DNA from: Thiobacillus thioparus DSM 505
GTDB taxonomy: Bacteria; Pseudomonadota; Gammaproteobacteria; Burkholderiales; Thiobacillaceae
Reading direction: 5' to 3'
NCBI RefSeq assembly: GCF_000373385.1
Contig: NZ_KB891326.1
Location: forward strand, 23,309 to 87,308
DNA length: 64,000 nt
Position numbers and translations under genes: made by a program. Positions 23,546 to 38,881 of this stretch are shown here, piece after piece; position 1 is the stretch's first letter; the number at the start of each line of letters is the position of its first letter. The notes under the pieces are model-generated. The model searched no databases. It saw only the letters and a list, made by a program, of their open reading frames with translations, and was not told the origin of the DNA.

Positions 23546-23676
23546 GAAAGTGGTGGGCCTGAGGCGGTTCTTGAGGTGGCCTCGTCAAAGGAGCGGGTTG
23601 CCGCCCACACGATACGTCCGGCACGCGGTGAGGCGGCGGAAGGCTGTGTGCCAACCGCCGCCGCCGCCCACTGCTG

Positions 23677-24252
23677 CTATCGCGCCCGGCCCGCCGCAGT
23701 GGCGGCCGGCACCTCGACCAGTTTGCCGCTCTTCACGTCGTAGATGTAGCCGTAGATGGGGATGTTTCCGGGTACCAGCGGATGGGCGCGGATGCGTAGC
23801 ACGTCTTCGAGCACACTCTGCTCCTGATTGGGAATAGTGAGCCAGCTGATGTGCTCGCCTTCGGGCGATCCGCCGCCGCCCGCATCGTGCCAGCCGCTGG
23901 CGTCGACGGGCGGTCTTCAGACTGCTGCGCAGCAGCTTGCGCATGACCTCGTCGGTGAAGGTCTCCTGCCGCAATCGGTGTGGTGGATGACGAACCACTC
24001 GCGGGTACCCAGCAGCTTGTAGGAAATGACCAGCGAGCGGATGGCGTCATCGCTGGCGCGGCCGCCGGCATTGCGGATGACATGGGCGTCGCCCTCCGCG
24101 AGTCCGGCATATTGGGCCGGATCGAGGCGGGCGTCCATGCAGGTGAGGATGGCGAAGTGTCGGCCCGGCGGCATGGGCAGGCTGCCTTTATTGCCGAAAT
24201 TGGATGCATAGCGCTGGTTGGCGGTCAGGACTTCATTCACGACGGTACTCAT
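23677..24252 (-). pseudogene. beta-class carbonic anhydrase with two frameshifts
   Basis: The reading frame starts with AAGGAG and [16 protein letters not shown] and contains the zinc-site segments [11 protein letters not shown] and HHTDCG, so the Cys, Asp-Arg, His and Cys residues of beta-carbonic anhydrase are present. Just after HTDCG (about 23983) the frame breaks: the expected ATG-GAG reads AG-GAG, one base short. It resumes as [16 protein letters not shown] and shifts again near 23910, continuing as [20 protein letters not shown] and then [19 protein letters not shown] to the stop at 23677. As read, translation ends at 23917 and gives 111 residues with the zinc ligands but no C-terminal part. 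Real decay or sequence error cannot be told apart here. Confidence 0.85.
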
Positions 24253-24552
24253 GCTTGTCTCCTTATCCACGCCGCGATGACTGGATCTGCGGGGGCGTCG
24301 CGGATTCGGTCCGCCGCGTCGATTGGCTTGCCTGGGTGGGTGAAGGTCGCCAGGCAGGTGGAAAATTCGAGAACCCAGTATAGGAAACAGGCAAGCGGAC
24401 GAATCAAGAGGCGGGCTGGTCGATATGGCAAAACTCTGCATGATCGTATGGGAATACTGTAATTCGTACCGCCCGCCATGAATATTTTTGACGGTACACC
24501 TGACGGCATCTGTCGGTATGATGGCAACGTCACATAATCATCTTGGTCTGTC
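24253..24552. other. divergent intergenic region between carbonic anhydrase and the fusion gene
   Basis: About 300 bases with promoters expected on both sides. The right end is AT-richer and has a repeated CTGACGG/CTGTCGG motif (about 24498-24516). No tRNA gene or tRNA 3' end was found here, although a DUF4102 integrase gene normally starts next to one. Confidence 0.5.
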
Positions 24553-27500
24553 ATGGCCCGTACTGCCATACCTCTTACCGATCGCCGTATCCGCCAGACG
24601 CGTCCAGCGGCCAAGCCGCTCAAGCTGGCAGACGGCGGTGGCATGTATCTGCTGCTGAATCCAGATGGCTCACGGTACTGGCGGCTGGATTACCGTTTTG
24701 GCGGGAAACGCAAGACCCTGGCTCTCGGGGTATACCCGGAGGTGACGCTGGGCGAGGCAAGGCGGCGCCGCTGTGCCGCCCGGGCGTTGCTGGCGGAAGG
24801 GCGTGATCCAGCCGCAGAGAGGAAGGCAGGCAAGGCCGGCAAACCACAACCCGACGGGAGCGAACAGGCCTATGCCCTGGCGCTCCTTGGCGAAGGTGTG
24901 TGGGACTGGGATTTGCGTAGCGGTCGGGTGCGGCACAACCCGCAGTGGGCGCGCCTGATGGGCCTGGATGAGCAGCAGTCGGAGCATACCTGGCAGGAGG
25001 CCATTGCCTGCCTGCAGGAGCAGGATCGGGCCGGTGTGATGACGGCGATCCGGGCCTGCCTCAATGGCAAGGCGGTGTTCGATCGCGAACATCGAATCCG
25101 GCACGCCGACGGTACCTTGATCTGGCTACATAACCGGGGCGAGGTTGTGGAACGCGATGCCGAGGACAACCCGCTGCGCATGGTGGGCAGCCTGCGCGAG
25201 GTGACCGAACAGCGGCGCGAGGCGCTGGTCATGCGGCAGCGCAATCTGTTGCTGCAGATCATCGCGGCGGTGAACGAAATGCTGATGGCGGAGCGGCCCG
25301 AGCACGAGCTGATGGCGCGCATCTGTCAGGAACTGGTGCGGGACGACCTGTTCCGCATGGCCTGGGTCGGTCTGGTGAACAAGGATGGCGTCACGGTCGA
25401 TTCGGTGGCGGAGGCGGGCTTCGAGAATACGTATCTGCCCAAGGCGGAAATCCGCTGCGACGATTCTCCCCAGGGCCAGGGGCCCACCGGGACCGCCATC
25501 CGTCTGGGCATTACGGCGATCAACGACGACACCGAGACCAATCAACAGTTTGCGCCGTGGCGGGAACGTGCGCTCATCCATGGTTATCGATCTTCGGCTG
25601 CGACGCCGTTGCGGGCGTATGGACGGGTCATCGGCGCTCTGACGGTTTACAGCGAAGAGCCCCATGCGTTCGGCCCGGAAAAGGTGATCCTGCTGGAGAA
25701 GCTGGCTGCCGATCTCGGCGTGGCCATGGGCCATCGCGCGGCCTTGGCCGCATTGCGCGAGAGCGAAGAACGTTTCCGTCTGCTGCTGGACGCATCCCCC
25801 GAGGCGATTTTCGGGGTCGACAGCCAGGGCATCTGCACGTTCGTGAATCCGGCCTGTCTCGACATGCTGGGCTACACGCAGGCGGAAGTCCTTGGCAAGG
25901 GTATTCATGCCCTGATCCACCACAGCTATCCGGACGGGCGCCCCTATCCGAAGGAGCAATGTCACATTCGCAGTTCCACCCTGGAGGGCAAGCCCACCCA
26001 TGTGGACAGCGAAGTGCACTGGCGCAAGGATGGCACCAGCTTCCCGGTCGAATACTGGTCCCATCCCATGTACCGCAACGGCCAGCTGGTGGGGGCAGTG
26101 GTCAACTTCATCGACATCAGCAAACGCAAGCGGATGGAGCAGGCGCTGCGCGAGAGCGAGGAGCGCTACCGCCTGATTTCCAGCGTGTCGACCGACCTGC
26201 TGTACTCCTGCATGCAGACGGCGGCAGGGGATCTGATCATCGACTGGGCGACGACTTCGGCGGATCAGGTCTTCGGTTATTCGCTGGATGAAATCATGGC
26301 CAAAGGTTGCTGGCGCCATCTCGTTCACCCGGATGATTTCGCCGAATTCGATCGCAATATTGCCCATCTCGCGCCGGGGCAGCGTAGCGAATGCGAGCTG
26401 CGCATCCTGGCAAAGGACGGCGCCATCCATTACATCCGCGCGTATACGCTGGCCGTGGAGGCGGAAGACGACAAGGTCGGGAACCGCCTGTACGGCGCCT
26501 GCCAGGATATTACCGAGCGCAGACAGGCGGAGGCGCGCATCGAATTTCTCGCCCATCACGATGTCCTTACCGGCCTGCCCAACCGCGTGCTGCTGCGCGA
26601 CCGTTTCGAGCAGGCGCTGGCCAGGGCGCAACGGTCGCAGAGTCTGGTGGCGATGCTGTTCCTAGACCTCGACAATTTCAAGCGGGTGAACGATACCCTG
26701 GGACATGTTGCGGGCGACCAGCTCTTGCTGGAGGCCGTCAAGCGGCTGATGCACAGCACGCGCGACAGCGACACCATCAGCCGCCAGGGCGGGGACGAAT
26801 TCATCCTGCTCCTCAACGAAATCCCGGACATGGAAACGGTGGAGCGCGTCGCGGCAGACATCCTCAGGTTGCTGGCCGAACCGGTGGAGATCAACGGACA
26901 CGCGATGAACGCCTCCTGCAGTATCGGCATCGCCATGTATCCGCAGGATGGCAGCGACTTCGACAGCCTGTTGCAGAAGGCCGATACGGCCATGTACAAC
27001 GCCAAGGATGCGGGCCGTAATACCTATCGCTTCTTCGACGACCGCATGAACCGGCAGGCCCGCGAGCACCTGATGCTGCAAAACCGTCTGCATCAGGCGC
27101 TCTACCGGGCCGAGCTGCTACTGCACTACCAGCCGCAACTGGACGCCGACAGCGGCAAGGTGACCGGCGTGGAGGCGCTGCTGCGCTGGCACAACCCGGA
27201 ACTGGGCGACATATCGCCGGCCCGCTTCATTCCGGTGGCGGAAGACAGCGGTCTGATCGTGCCCATCGGCGCCTGGGTGATCGAACAGTCCTGCCGGCAG
27301 GCCCAGGCGTGGCGGCAGGCGGGATTGCCGGATATCACCATGTCGGTCAACCTGTCGGCCCTGCAGTTTCGCCGTGCCGGCCTGATCGAGACCGTGGCGG
27401 GCGCGCTGGCGCGCAGCGGGTTGTCGCCGCAGCTGCTGGAGCTGGAGCTGACCGAATCCATCCTGCTGCAGGATGTGGAGAACACCCTGGACACGGTTCG

Positions 27501-27831
27501 GCAGTTGAAAGCCCTGGGCATCCGGCTGGCGATCGACGACTTCGGCACGGGCTATTCCTCGCTCAGCTATCTCAAGCGTTTTGCCGTCGACCGGCTCAAG
27601 ATCGACCAGTCTTTCGTGCGCGACATCCACACCGACCCGGATGATGCCGCCATCGTCAGCGCCATCATCCAACTGGCGCGCAGCCTGCGGCTGGGCATCA
27701 TTGCCGAAGGCGTGGAAACGGCGGAGCAACTGGCGTTCCTGCGCGAGGCCGGGTGCAGCGAAGTGCAAGGCTACCTGTTCAGCCGGCCGCTGGCACCGGC
27801 GGCGATGGATGCGTTCCTGCGCATGCCCTGA
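24553..27831 (+). CDS. DUF4102 integrase arm-binding domain fused to PAS-GAF-PAS-PAS-GGDEF-EAL
   Basis: A 1092-residue hybrid. Residues about 6-92 are a phage-integrase N-terminal arm-binding domain (DUF4102): LTDRRIRQTRPAAKPLKLAD, then GGGMYLLLNPDGSRYWRLDY and LALGVYPEVTLGEARRRR. It continues in the same frame into PAS (105-222, VWDWDLRSG), GAF (232-395), PAS (402-528), PAS (530-658), GGDEF (660-828) and EAL (838-1090). The GGDEF site is intact (RQGGDEF at 744-750) with an RDSD inhibitory-site motif at 737-740. EAL residues are intact (VEALLRW at 873, [14 protein letters not shown]). It could both make and break c-di-GMP under sensory control. No integrase catalytic domain is present. Start ATG is the only one that keeps the DUF4102 domain. 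Confidence 0.93.
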   Translation: MARTAIPLTDRRIRQTRPAAKPLKLADGGGMYLLLNPDGSRYWRLDYRFGGKRKTLALGVYPEVTLGEARRRRCAARALLAEGRDPAAERKAGKAGKPQPDGSEQAYALALLGEGVWDWDLRSGRVRHNPQWARLMGLDEQQSEHTWQEAIACLQEQDRAGVMTAIRACLNGKAVFDREHRIRHADGTLIWLHNRGEVVERDAEDNPLRMVGSLREVTEQRREALVMRQRNLLLQIIAAVNEMLMAERPEHELMARICQELVRDDLFRMAWVGLVNKDGVTVDSVAEAGFENTYLPKAEIRCDDSPQGQGPTGTAIRLGITAINDDTETNQQFAPWRERALIHGYRSSAATPLRAYGRVIGALTVYSEEPHAFGPEKVILLEKLAADLGVAMGHRAALAALRESEERFRLLLDASPEAIFGVDSQGICTFVNPACLDMLGYTQAEVLGKGIHALIHHSYPDGRPYPKEQCHIRSSTLEGKPTHVDSEVHWRKDGTSFPVEYWSHPMYRNGQLVGAVVNFIDISKRKRMEQALRESEERYRLISSVSTDLLYSCMQTAAGDLIIDWATTSADQVFGYSLDEIMAKGCWRHLVHPDDFAEFDRNIAHLAPGQRSECELRILAKDGAIHYIRAYTLAVEAEDDKVGNRLYGACQDITERRQAEARIEFLAHHDVLTGLPNRVLLRDRFEQALARAQRSQSLVAMLFLDLDNFKRVNDTLGHVAGDQLLLEAVKRLMHSTRDSDTISRQGGDEFILLLNEIPDMETVERVAADILRLLAEPVEINGHAMNASCSIGIAMYPQDGSDFDSLLQKADTAMYNAKDAGRNTYRFFDDRMNRQAREHLMLQNRLHQALYRAELLLHYQPQLDADSGKVTGVEALLRWHNPELGDISPARFIPVAEDSGLIVPIGAWVIEQSCRQAQAWRQAGLPDITMSVNLSALQFRRAGLIETVAGALARSGLSPQLLELELTESILLQDVENTLDTVRQLKALGIRLAIDDFGTGYSSLSYLKRFAVDRLKIDQSFVRDIHTDPDDAAIVSAIIQLARSLRLGIIAEGVETAEQLAFLREAGCSEVQGYLFSRPLAPAAMDAFLRMP

Positions 27832-27914
27832 CGTGTCCCGGCGCCATTTCCCCTTCACGTGGGGCGTTGGCAGTTCTATGCTGAAAGGATGTCGAATGTC
27901 GCGAGTCTCTGTTC

Positions 27915-28184
27915 ATGAGTCACAAGCACGAGAATTTGTTGCGGACGATTTTCGAAGGACCGGTCAGCGGCAACGTTCATTGGCGCGAGGTGGAAGCGAT
28001 GCTGGCGCATCTGGGTGCCAACGTGGAACCGCACCATGGTGCGAGCTTCCGTGTGGTGCTGAACGGCGTGGAAGGTTTCCTGCACCGCCCGCACAACAGC
28101 AATACCTGCAGCAAACAGGAGTTGCGGCATGTGCGCGATTATCTGGTGTCGGCAGGCGTGGAACTGCCGCAGGGCAAGGCATGA
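27915..28184 (+). CDS. HicA-like small protein (orphan)
   Basis: An 89-residue protein of the type often annotated as HicA-family toxin. It holds the dsRBD-like pattern NVHWREVEAMLAHLGANVEP, then GASFRVVLNGVEGFLHRPH and LRHVRDYLVSAGVELP. HicA proteins are mRNA interferases with an active His; the His residues in HGASF and HRPH fit loosely. No hicB antitoxin gene is next to it, so it may not be a toxin. Its TGA overlaps the next ATG (ATGA). There is no clear ribosome binding site. Confidence 0.7.
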   Translation: MSHKHENLLRTIFEGPVSGNVHWREVEAMLAHLGANVEPHHGASFRVVLNGVEGFLHRPHNSNTCSKQELRHVRDYLVSAGVELPQGKA

Positions 28185-28504
28185 GCGTCGCCCTGCGTAA
28201 TGGCCTGGTATCCGCCGTGCTGGCCACGGCCCTCGGCCTGATGCCCGTCTCCGCACTCGCCCAGCAGGATGGCACCGTCAGCGGCGACAAGACCACCGAC
28301 ATGGTGGTGGACGCGGTAATCATGCGGCCATTGGGACTGGCGGCCACGGTGGTTGGGACGGTGCTGACCGTGGTGGCATTGCCTTTCACCATCCCCAGTG
28401 GCAGCGTGGAAACGTCGGCACGGCAACTGATCCTCCGACCGGCGGACTATACGTTCAAGCGGCCGCTGGGCGATTTCAGCGACAGCGGCGAGGACGGGCA
28501 CTAG
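28181..28504 (+). CDS. conserved exported or membrane protein of unknown function
   Basis: A 107-residue protein with a signal peptide (LVSAVLATALGLMPVSALAQ) and a second hydrophobic stretch (GLAATVVGTVLTVVALPFTI). The string LPFTIPSGSVETSARQLI followed by PADYTFKRPLGDF is a conserved signature of small proteins often labelled multidrug transporter without evidence. It is translationally coupled to the HicA-like gene. Confidence 0.75.
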   Translation: MSVALRNGLVSAVLATALGLMPVSALAQQDGTVSGDKTTDMVVDAVIMRPLGLAATVVGTVLTVVALPFTIPSGSVETSARQLILRPADYTFKRPLGDFSDSGEDGH

Positions 28505-28733: not shown

Positions 28734-31700
28734 ATGCAAGTGACCCGGAGACAGTTTTTCAAGATATGCGCAGCGGGGGTCGGCAGCTCCAGCCTCGTTG
28801 CGTTGGGATTCGCGCCTGGCGAGGCCCTGGCGGAGGTGAGGGCATTCAAGCTGGCACGCACCACCGAAACCCGCAACACCTGCCCCTATTGCTCGGTAGG
28901 TTGCGGCCTTTTGATCTACAGCCTGGGCGACAAGGCCAAAAACGCACCCGGCGAAATCATGCATATCGAAGGCGACCCGGATCATCCGGTGAACCGCGGT
29001 ACGCTCTGCCCGAAAGGGGCGGGTCTGCTGGATTTCGTACACAGCCCGGGCCGGCTCAAGCAGCCCGAATACCGTGCGCCCGGCAGCAAGGAATGGACGC
29101 CCATTTCCTGGGATGACGCCTTCACACGTATCGCCAAGCTGATGAAGGACGACCGCGACAAGAACTTCATCGCCAAGAACGACAAGGGTGAAACGGTGAA
29201 TCGCTGGGTGTCCACCGGCATGCTCGCCGCCTCCGCTTCCAGCAACGAAACCGGCTACCTGACGCAGAAGATCGCGCGCAGCCTGGGGATGCTCGCATTC
29301 GATAACCAGGCGCGTGTCTGACACGGTCCGACGGTGGCAAGTCTTGCCCCGACGTTTGGCCGCGGTGCGATGACCAACCATTGGGTTGACATCAAGAACA
29401 CGGATCTGGTTTTGATCATGGGCGGCAATGCTGCCGAGGCACACCCATGCGGCTTCAAATGGGTGACCGAAGCGAAGGCGCATCGCAAGGCCAGGCTGAT
29501 CGTGGTCGATCCGCGTTTCACGCGCTCGGCCGCGGTGTCGGATTATTACGCGCCGATCCGTGCCGGCACGGATATCGCCTTCCTCGGCGGGGTCATCAAC
29601 TATCTGCTGAGCAACGACAAGATCCATCACGAATACGTGAAGACCTACACCGATTTCAGTTTCCTGGTGAAGGACGAATTCGCGTTCAATGACGGCCTCT
29701 ACTCCGGCTATAACCCGGAGAAACGCAGCTACGACAAGTCCACCTGGGGCTACCAGGTGGGCGCCGACGGCTATGTCGTCACCGACCCGACGCTGCAAAA
29801 CCCCCGCTGCGTATATCAGATGATGAAAGCGCACTACGCACGCTACACGCCGGACGTGGTGTCGTCCATCTGCGGCACCCCCAAGGAGGCCTTCCTCAAG
29901 GTGTGCGAGATGATCGCCGGGACCGCCACGCCCAACAAGACCATGACCATCATGTACGCCCTGGGCTGGACGCAGCACTCTCAGGGCTCGCAGAACATCC
30001 GTACAGGCGCGATGGTGCAATTGCTGCTGGGGAACATCGGCGTGGCGGGCGGCGGCATGAACGCGCTGCGTGGTCACTCCAACATCCAGGGACTGACCGA
30101 TCTGGGGTTGCTGTCCAACCTGCTCCCGGGTTACATGAGCTTGCCCAATGATGCCGAGCAGGACTACAAGGCCTACGTCGAGAAGCGTGCCTCCAAGCCG
30201 CTGCGCCCGGGCCAGCTCTCCTACTGGCAGAACTACAACAAGTTCTTCGTCAGCAACATGAAGGCGTGGTGGGGCGACGCCGCCACAGCGGAAAACAACT
30301 GGTGCTACGACTGGCTTCCCAAGCTCGACAAGGGCTACGACCTGCTGCAGGTGTTCGAGAACATGAATCAGGGCAAGGTCAACGGCTACATCTGCCAGGG
30401 CTTCAACCCGCTGGCCTCGGCACCCTGCAAGGTGAAAGTGTCCGGCTCACTCGCCAAGCTCAAATATCTGGTGATCATCGACCCGCTGGCCACCGAGACC
30501 TCGGAGTTCTGGCAGAACCACGGCGAATACAACGACGTGGACCCGGCCAAGATCCAGACCGAGGTGTTCCGCCTGCCTTCCACCTGCTTCGCGGAAGAAG
30601 ACGGTTCGCTGGTCAGTTCCAGCCGTGTGCTGCAGTGGCACTGGAAGGCTGCGGAACCGCCGGGCGATGCCAAGGGCGATCAGGAAATCATGGCTGGCAT
30701 CTTCCTCAGGTTGCGCGACCTGTACAAGAAGGGCGGCGGCGCCTTCCCCGATCCCATCCTCAACTTGACCTGGAAGCATCGCCAGCCCGAGTCGCCGTCA
30801 CCCGAGGAACTGGCCAGGGAATTCTCCGGCAAGGCGCTGAAGGATGTCACCGACCCGAAGGATCCGGCCAAGGTCCTGGTGAAGGCCGGCGAGCAGTTGA
30901 ACGGCTTCGCCGAATTGCGCGACGACGGCTCCACTTCCTGCGGCTGCTGGATCTTCTCCGGTGCCTGGTCGGAGAAGGGCAACCTCATGGCGCGGCGCGA
31001 CAACAGCGATCCCTATGGCATCGGGCAGACGCTGAACTGGGCTTTCGCCTGGCCGGCCAACCGGCGTGTGCTGTACAACCGCGCCTCGTGCGACCCGAGT
31101 GGCAAGCCTTACGATCCGACGCGCAAGCTGATTGCCTGGGATGCCGCCAGCGGCAAGTGGGGGGGCGCCGACATTCCGGACTTCAAGCCGGACTCTCCGC
31201 CGGAAGACGGGATGAATCCCTTCATCATGAATCCGGAAGGCGTGGCGCGCTTCTTCGCGGTGGGCCTGATGGCGGAGGGCCCCTTCCCCGAGCACTACGA
31301 GCCGATGGAATCGCCGTTGGCGAACAATCCGATGCATCCGAAGAACGAGATGGCACGGGCAAACCCTGCCGCGCGGGTGTTCAAGGAGGATTGGGCAAGC
31401 TTCGGCAAGCCGGACCAGTTCCCCTATGTGGGCACCACTTATCGGCTCACCGAACATTTCCACTTCTGGACCAAGCACGCTCGGCTCAACGCCATTATCC
31501 AGCCGGAGCAGTTCGTGGAAATCGGCGAGGACCTGGCCAAGGAGAAGGGCATCAAGGATGGCGATCATGTCCGGGTAAGGTCCAAGCGCGGTTTCATCGT
31601 CGCAGTGGCGGTGGTGACCAAGCGCGTGCGTACGCTCGACGTCGAGGGCCGGAAAGTACATACCGTGGGCATGCCGATTCACTGGGGGTTCATGGGGCTG

Positions 31701-31805
31701 ACCAAGAATGGCTATATCACCAACACGCTCACACCCTTCGTGGGCGATGCCAACACCCAGACGCCGGAATTCAAGGCGTTCCTCGTGAACATCGAGAAGG
31801 TTTAG
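28734..31805 (+). CDS. fdoG: formate dehydrogenase-O/N alpha subunit, selenoprotein with in-frame UGA
   Basis: Catalytic subunit (1023 residues) of the respiratory formate dehydrogenase, oxidising formate to CO2 with a molybdenum-bis(MGD) cofactor. Residues 1-33 are a TAT signal (TRRQFFKICAAG). The first 4Fe-4S cluster motif is TCPYCSVGCGL ... LCPKGAG. An in-frame TGA at 29319-29321 is residue 196, in the context NQARV-U-HGPTVASLAP, the same place as the selenocysteine of E. coli FdnG/FdoG. The reading frame continues without a break to the stop at 31805, so this is one gene and not two. GGAGG precedes the ATG. fdoH, fdoI, fdhE and the Sec machinery follow on the same strand. Exported folded with FdoH; active site in the periplasm. 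Confidence 0.97.
29319..29357 (+). promoter_or_regulatory. bacterial SECIS element and selenocysteine codon of fdoG
   Basis: The TGA codon at 29319-29321 is followed by a stem-loop whose top is GGCAAG/CTTGCC with a GU-containing loop. SelB binds this element and brings Sec-tRNA to the ribosome. The encoded residues match E. coli fdnG here, and the hairpin position relative to UGA is as expected. selA, selB and tRNA-Sec genes lie 5-9 kb downstream. Confidence 0.9.
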
Positions 31806-38755: not shown

Positions 38756-38785
38756 AGCGATCGACTGGAGAATCGAGTTTCAATT

Positions 38786-38881
38786 GGAAGGGAAGCGTGC
38801 CTGGTGGTGCGGCCGGACTTCAAATTCGGTTGGGGGTGTCAGTCGCTCCCGGGTGGGTTCGACTCCCACTTCCTTCCGCCA
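38786..38881 (+). tRNA. selC: tRNA-Sec (anticodon UCA)
   Basis: A 96-nucleotide gene with encoded CCA. The acceptor stem is eight base pairs (GGAAGGGA with TTCCTTCC, one G-U), the mark of tRNA-Sec. The anticodon TCA is at 38820-38822 in the loop CTTCAAA. A long extra arm (GGGGGTGTCAGTCGCTCCC) and the T-arm GGTTCGACTCC follow. It starts 31 bases after selB, completing the selenocysteine cassette. Confidence 0.97.

Follow-up and report, generated by a model that had tools for sequence, protein, structure and literature searches.

The stretch of DNA analysed here (the window) comprises 64,000 nucleotides of contig NZ_KB891326.1 of Thiobacillus thioparus DSM 505. At 24553-27831 on the forward strand it holds a single unbroken open reading frame (ORF) of 1092 amino acids, in which a DNA-binding domain of the integrase type is fused to an enzyme of cyclic di-guanosine monophosphate (c-di-GMP) turnover. 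The protein matches 11 Pfam families and is built, from N- to C-terminus, of an integrase arm DNA-binding domain (Arm-DNA-bind_3; residues 8-92, 24574-24828), a PAS-GAF-PAS-PAS sensor block, a GGDEF and an EAL domain. Within the sensor block, Pfam places the first PAS domain at 24928-25191 (residues 126-213), the GAF domain at 25294-25728 (residues 248-392) and the second PAS domain at 25768-26121 (residues 406-523); the third, at 26170-26517 (residues about 540-655), is a second PAS_3 stretch with approximate borders. The GGDEF domain (26551-27021, residues 667-823) has intact GGDEF and RxxD motifs, and the EAL domain (27082-27789, residues 844-1079) intact catalytic residues. In 32 of 32 fusions from the genus, the GGDEF motif and the RxxD I-site are invariant, and EALLR, ELTE, DDFGTG, KID, EGVE and QG, which we take to be the catalytic motifs of the EAL domain, are all kept. 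The Pfam matches and these invariant motifs confirm the preliminary description of this DNA, which had proposed an in-frame fusion of an arm domain to a PAS-GAF-PAS-PAS-GGDEF-EAL protein with intact motifs. As no core-binding or tyrosine-recombinase catalytic domain is among the 11 families, the fusion protein should not be a recombinase; nor do they include a helix-turn-helix (HTH) family, such as the LuxR-like one of PdeL, the N-terminus being taken by Arm-DNA-bind_3. The predicted fold of this N-terminal domain resembles integrase arm domains (3ju0, 3jtz and 3rmp), the last of these structures bearing the title 'recognition of attP substrates by P4-like integrases'.

The start codon is preceded by a direct repeat, TGACGGTA-N4-TGACGGCA. 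Its two halves, recognized by promoter comparison, occupy 24489-24496 (TGACGGTA) and 24501-24508 (TGACGGCA) on the forward strand, with a period of 12 base pairs (bp). In 26 of the 33 intact fusions that we found in the genus, the pair recurs with at most one mismatch, 42-48 bp ahead of the start codon, and two more (genomes G014 and G030) have it with two mismatches; none of 640 dinucleotide-preserving shuffles came below four mismatches. Across 27 representatives of the 29 promoters with at most three mismatches, the motif holds 1.58 bits per position, compared to 0.32 in the 60 bp upstream and 0.53 in the 28 bp downstream, a difference that is partly by construction, since the promoters were aligned on the motif. 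In the same representatives, a box further upstream (TTCGTACC, 24463-24470, forward strand; TT[TC]GTACCA in many relatives) holds 0.83-1.27 bits at positions -26, -25, -20 and -19 relative to the repeat pair and may be a third, inverted site. This GTACC box, and a CCGTC ahead of many start codons, may be remnants of inverted arm sites. Downstream of the repeats, a -10-like TATGAT was read by eye at 24517-24522 on the forward strand; relatives have TAGGAT, TAAGAT and similar, mostly one base later, and T and A at +29/+30 from the motif start hold about 1 bit. Counted from this element, the repeats would span about -40 to -21.

In the genome of the window, a double site with at most one mismatch occurs once, at the fusion promoter; a second target was rejected at this threshold, no other double site being present. 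With up to three mismatches there are 46 matches, versus 3 for the reversed pattern. Among the matches listed in a genus-wide pattern search, which omit G000 and extend into G027, the seven exact ones (G001, G007, G012, G017, G018, G022 and G024) are all fusion promoters.

The 33 intact fusions were found in 56 Thiobacillus genomes, as frames of 824-1244 amino acids whose arm domains are 60-98% identical to that of the window. One further copy is frameshifted (G020), another ends at a contig edge with its arm unseen (G008), and 21 genomes, some of them incomplete assemblies, have no fusion. Two or more of the usual neighbours accompany 23 of the 33 fusions, one is present at four and none at six, in stretches that are often short. 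These neighbours are, upstream, an IF1-like gene, MscS, a glycine-zipper lipoprotein gene and a carbonic anhydrase gene, and, downstream, a HicA-like gene 64-89 bp past the fusion stop codon, followed by formate dehydrogenase. The HicA-like gene of the window (27915-28184, forward strand) directly follows the fusion and scores 26.0 bits, just below the cut-off of 27. A HicA-like gene is present in 39 of the 56 genomes, including ten without the fusion, so that the idea of the two forming one unit was rejected. Eight of these ten were examined, and all eight (G003, G013, G015, G016, G021, G023, G026 and G045) show an empty site, with an upstream neighbour 143-607 bp before the HicA-like gene. 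The repeat pair is absent there too (best 4-7 mismatches in 260 bp), and therefore the site came, or went, with the fusion gene. The preliminary description had held that separate genes in relatives, or a fusion confined to this assembly, would betray a recent accident; what the genus presents is an intact fusion in 33 genomes and an empty site in the eight fusionless ones examined. An unfused orthologue of the C-terminal part was not seen among the genus matches listed, other GGDEF-EAL proteins being about 41-57% identical.

On an rpoB tree of 35 genomes of the genus and 8 of the same family, the fusions are scattered across the whole genus, although some inner nodes are weak, and the arm domains of all 33 fusions form one clade (support 0.968). 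We read this as one old gain of the fusion, followed by up to about ten losses on this tree. In nine family genomes of other genera, no fusion was seen at an E-value of 1e-15: five gave no match, three gave listed frames of 162-442 amino acids, and one match was unlisted. The same threshold, applied to an order sample of 399 genomes, yielded frames of at most 601 amino acids outside the genus among the matches listed, and a class sample of 369 genomes (E 1e-20) frames of at most 502 outside the window's own genome, with no fusion seen in either. When a genome collection was scanned, the best 80 of 187 relatives comprised 31 loci of the Thiobacillus type, 30 with GGDEF/EAL in the same ORF and one frameshifted, and 49 arm ORFs without GGDEF/EAL. 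None of 79 viral loci had GGDEF/EAL within the arm ORF. Arm matches occur in 258 plasmid and 232 phage records; among the best 15 of each we saw no fusion, the features being integrases, hypothetical, unknown or numbered genes, or unannotated.

Different parts of the protein appear to evolve under different constraint. From pairwise Nei-Gojobori sums over pairs that are not independent, the ratio of nonsynonymous to synonymous substitution rates (dN/dS) is 0.207 for the arm domain, 0.186 for GGDEF and 0.163 for EAL, with 0.259 for GAF, 0.317-0.524 for the PAS domains and 0.646 for the linker. These values indicate that purifying selection acts on the arm domain almost as strongly as on GGDEF and EAL. 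The sensor block also varies in composition: nine relatives scanned have PAS-GAF-PAS-PAS, lack the first PAS or the GAF domain, or carry an extra PAS; in the other relatives, the fusion protein ranges from 816 to 1231 residues.

Repeats similar to those of the fusion promoter precede integrase genes (e.g. at loci L149, L127, L132, L133, L105 and L101). In a set of integrases (loci among L001-L173 and L224-L303) with 132 distinct arms and upstream DNA, 36 fall into an ACGG, 49 into a GGGG (GGGGG-type) and 5 into a TTGG repeat class, while shuffled DNA received a class in 55 of 2640 cases. The ACGG-class integrases were selected for having two repeat copies; a direct pair with a period of 12 or 13 bp, as in the fusion promoters, is present in 22 of the 36 (20 pairs at 12), compared to 3 of 1800 shuffles, counted on one strand only. 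Copies in both orientations occur at 30 of the 36. Pairs with one mismatch are also found where the surrounding stretch has no arm ORF (none in 12 stretches fetched). At six loci (L304, L305, L306, L308, L309 and L313), TGACGGTA pairs are some 55 bp away from a shared GAAACAATTGAGTGGGA, presumably the 3' end of guaA, an island target; these are apparent island ends, in several Thiobacillus genomes. Because similar repeats thus precede many related integrase genes and stand at apparent island ends, the TGACGGTA-type repeats resemble the arm-type sites of mobile elements, and it seems that the fusion retained both an arm domain and its DNA sites, acquired together.

The repeat class is mirrored in three residues of the arm domain, which in the window are D46 (24688-24690), R53 (24709-24711) and T55 (24715-24717; class-marking codons within 24688-24717, forward strand). 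When arms of the ACGG and GGGG classes are compared, mutual information reaches 0.98 at each of positions 53 and 46 and 0.85 at position 55, the next value being 0.46. D-R-T is found in 35 of 36 ACGG-class integrases (repeat TGACGGTA), K-E (K-E-x) in 49 of 49 of the GGGG class (repeats GGGGGTA or GGGGGCA), and A/S-Q-T in 5 of 5 of the TTGG class (repeat TTGGTA). On a tree built without columns 46, 53 and 55, parsimony requires 12 changes of repeat class, compared to a mean of 28 for shuffled labels, and the class therefore is neither one clade nor random. The three positions sit on the two long strands of the structural model; R44 is present in all arms of the ACGG and GGGG classes, and R48 in most. 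Of 25 viral arms that received a class, a single one is ACGG. D-R-T is present in every one of the 33 fusions, and since these residues track the ACGG class, the fusion arm appears to fit the repeats of its own promoter by class. The two resident integrases of the window's genome belong to other classes (KER and AQT). Residues 46/53/55 may thus represent a recognition code for P4-type integrases, which would help to annotate the arm sites of genomic islands.

Taken together, it appears that in the sulphur-bacterial genus Thiobacillus the DNA-reading tip of a mobile-element integrase was joined, along with its DNA sites, to a c-di-GMP enzyme. In the ancestor of the genus or close to it, a P4-type integrase gene would have lost its core-binding and catalytic parts as its 5' end, consisting of the arm domain and the upstream arm-type repeats of the promoter region, was fused to a PAS/GAF-GGDEF-EAL gene. 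The product would be a c-di-GMP enzyme, probably a dimer, with arm domains that attach to TGACGGTA-N4-TGACGGCA in its own promoter. Since this pair extends into the probable -35 region, the most likely outcome of binding is repression of the fusion gene, in the manner of integrases at their own promoters. The state of the PAS/GAF block and c-di-GMP at the I-site or the EAL domain would most likely alter the affinity for DNA, which would make the protein a 'trigger enzyme' that regulates itself, like PdeL. We place considerable trust in binding of the repeat DNA by the arm domain and consider autoregulation of the gene probable; that it takes the form of repression rather than activation we hold with a little more reserve, and for gating by a PAS/GAF signal or c-di-GMP our expectation is evenly divided. 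The fusion's own promoter is the likely target in the window's genome, because the double site occurs there once and the resident integrases are of other classes. The earlier suggestions that the fusion tethers c-di-GMP turnover to a DNA site, and that it is a regulator made by recombination, thereby gain substance: the repeat pair at 24489-24508 is a candidate site that matches the arm by class and was apparently acquired together with it.

Several observations weigh against such a self-regulating enzyme. Five fusions have no good repeat pair (G025 and G032 retain repeat 1 only, those of G028 and G044 are degenerate, and G049 lacks both repeats), and all five retain D-R-T nonetheless. A sigma-70 scan of 24200-28300 returned no promoter-like site, so that the -10 element rests on conservation and inspection by eye. 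The integrases were gathered with fusion arms as query and hence form a biased set, and 42 of the 132 arms were left unclassed by repeat, outside the residue-code counts. Fewer than two neighbours were seen in 10 of the 33 fusion genomes, and the fusions of G046 (L050), G014 (L051) and G048 (L056) have no usual neighbours over more than 6 kb on each side, which implies at least one relocation or transfer of the gene. The gene is also dispensable, given the 21 of 56 genomes without it. PdeL activates itself from a site far upstream (PMC5052742), whereas the fusion is proposed to be repressed through sites overlapping the likely -35 region, and for the integrase IntS none of the single arm-site mutations lifted repression while leaving the promoter unharmed (PMC2951348).

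The five genomes with damaged repeats and an intact gene are also what speaks for an arm domain that no longer binds DNA and serves in dimerisation or as a structural cap, the repeats persisting only as inherited promoter. Substitutions in G028, G044 and G049 (K52Q/T, V60T/F and others) suggest relaxed contacts, although integrases, too, can have T at 52 and at 60. Arm and repeats decay in a correlated way (rho 0.54, p 0.001, n=33), which is weak evidence given these residues in integrases and the shared ancestry of sister genomes. We consider a loss of binding unlikely, because conservation of the repeats exceeds that of the -10-like region (in an alignment on the repeats), 33 of 33 fusions have the residues that track DNA class in integrases, and the dN/dS of the arm domain is low. 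That the fusion is a recent accident or an assembly artefact without consequence would agree with the 21 fusionless genomes and the frameshifted copy in G020, but we reject it as having practically no chance, in the face of 33 intact copies forming one clade, shared neighbours in 23 and purifying selection; the fusion also turned up in a separate genome collection.

Alternatively, the arm could still bind arm-type repeats but have the arm sites of islands as its main targets, competing with island integrases and coupling island stability to c-di-GMP or PAS/GAF signals. Apparent island ends of some fusion genomes (G001, G012, G014, G024 and G007) do carry TGACGGTA-N4-TGACGGTA pairs with one mismatch, and the D-R-T residues would suit these. 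A similar island end is, however, also present in the fusionless G013, the genome of the window offers just one good double site and two resident integrases of other classes, and the conserved site is that of the promoter, all of which makes islands as main targets quite improbable. We are similarly doubtful of a combined arrangement, in which the arm acts as a sensor-gated transcription factor and binding of the dimer to arm-type repeats is switched by c-di-GMP occupancy and PAS/GAF state, at its own promoter and, where strains have D-R-T-class islands, at the island ends; if true, a second messenger would control both a life-style decision and island mobility. On balance, we favour with fair confidence a PdeL-like c-di-GMP enzyme that uses an integrase domain to bind DNA, sits on its own promoter and probably represses it.

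Further along the window, a gene at 28734-31805 on the forward strand, by its sequence presumably the formate dehydrogenase alpha subunit, has an in-frame TGA at residue 196 (NQARVUHGP), and a selenocysteine tRNA (tRNA-Sec) gene follows 7 kb downstream of it at 38785-38881 (forward strand); by sequence, the two mark a selenoprotein locus. Upstream of the fusion, a gene at about 23585-24252 on the reverse strand, which we take to be the carbonic anhydrase gene, looks broken, its reading shifting between frames. Relatives hold matching copies, and the break could be an assembly fault.

The preliminary description knew of no account of this combination, and our literature search likewise found no report of an arm domain-GGDEF fusion, judged mostly by titles and with subscription papers largely outside its coverage. 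DNA-binding c-di-GMP enzymes are themselves known; what would be new is one with a domesticated integrase arm domain. A DNA-reading domain of a mobile element and, it seems, its sites would have been taken up together and then retained in a host signalling enzyme for as long as the genus has existed. In domain order and active-site residues, the C-terminal 990 residues of the fusion are like PAS-GAF-GGDEF-EAL composite proteins, from which the N-terminal arm domain sets it apart. With the P4-like integrases of the IntSXT subgroup, of which the DUF4102 domain is described as the characteristic feature (PMC8138268), the fusion shares arm fold and sequence, upstream arm-type repeats and, in many, their 12-bp period, but it has no core-binding or catalytic domain. 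A regulatory parallel is IntS of KplE1, which represses its own gene, with TorI and IntS sites near -35/-10 implicated (PMC2951348). There, too, the arm-site region overlaps the promoter that the product represses, as we propose for the fusion, although IntS is a full integrase and its P' sites carry TAAA instead of TGACGG. PdeL (YahA) of E. coli, finally, is a DNA-binding trigger phosphodiesterase that binds and regulates its own promoter, activating its gene at low c-di-GMP (PMC5052742). Both proteins combine an N-terminal DNA-binding domain with an EAL domain, and control of the own promoter is proposed for the fusion as well; PdeL, however, has a LuxR-like HTH and EAL only (PMC5052742), the fusion an integrase arm domain, PAS/GAF sensors and both GGDEF and EAL. 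The fusion would thus add a member with a non-HTH domain to the small group of c-di-GMP enzymes that bind DNA.

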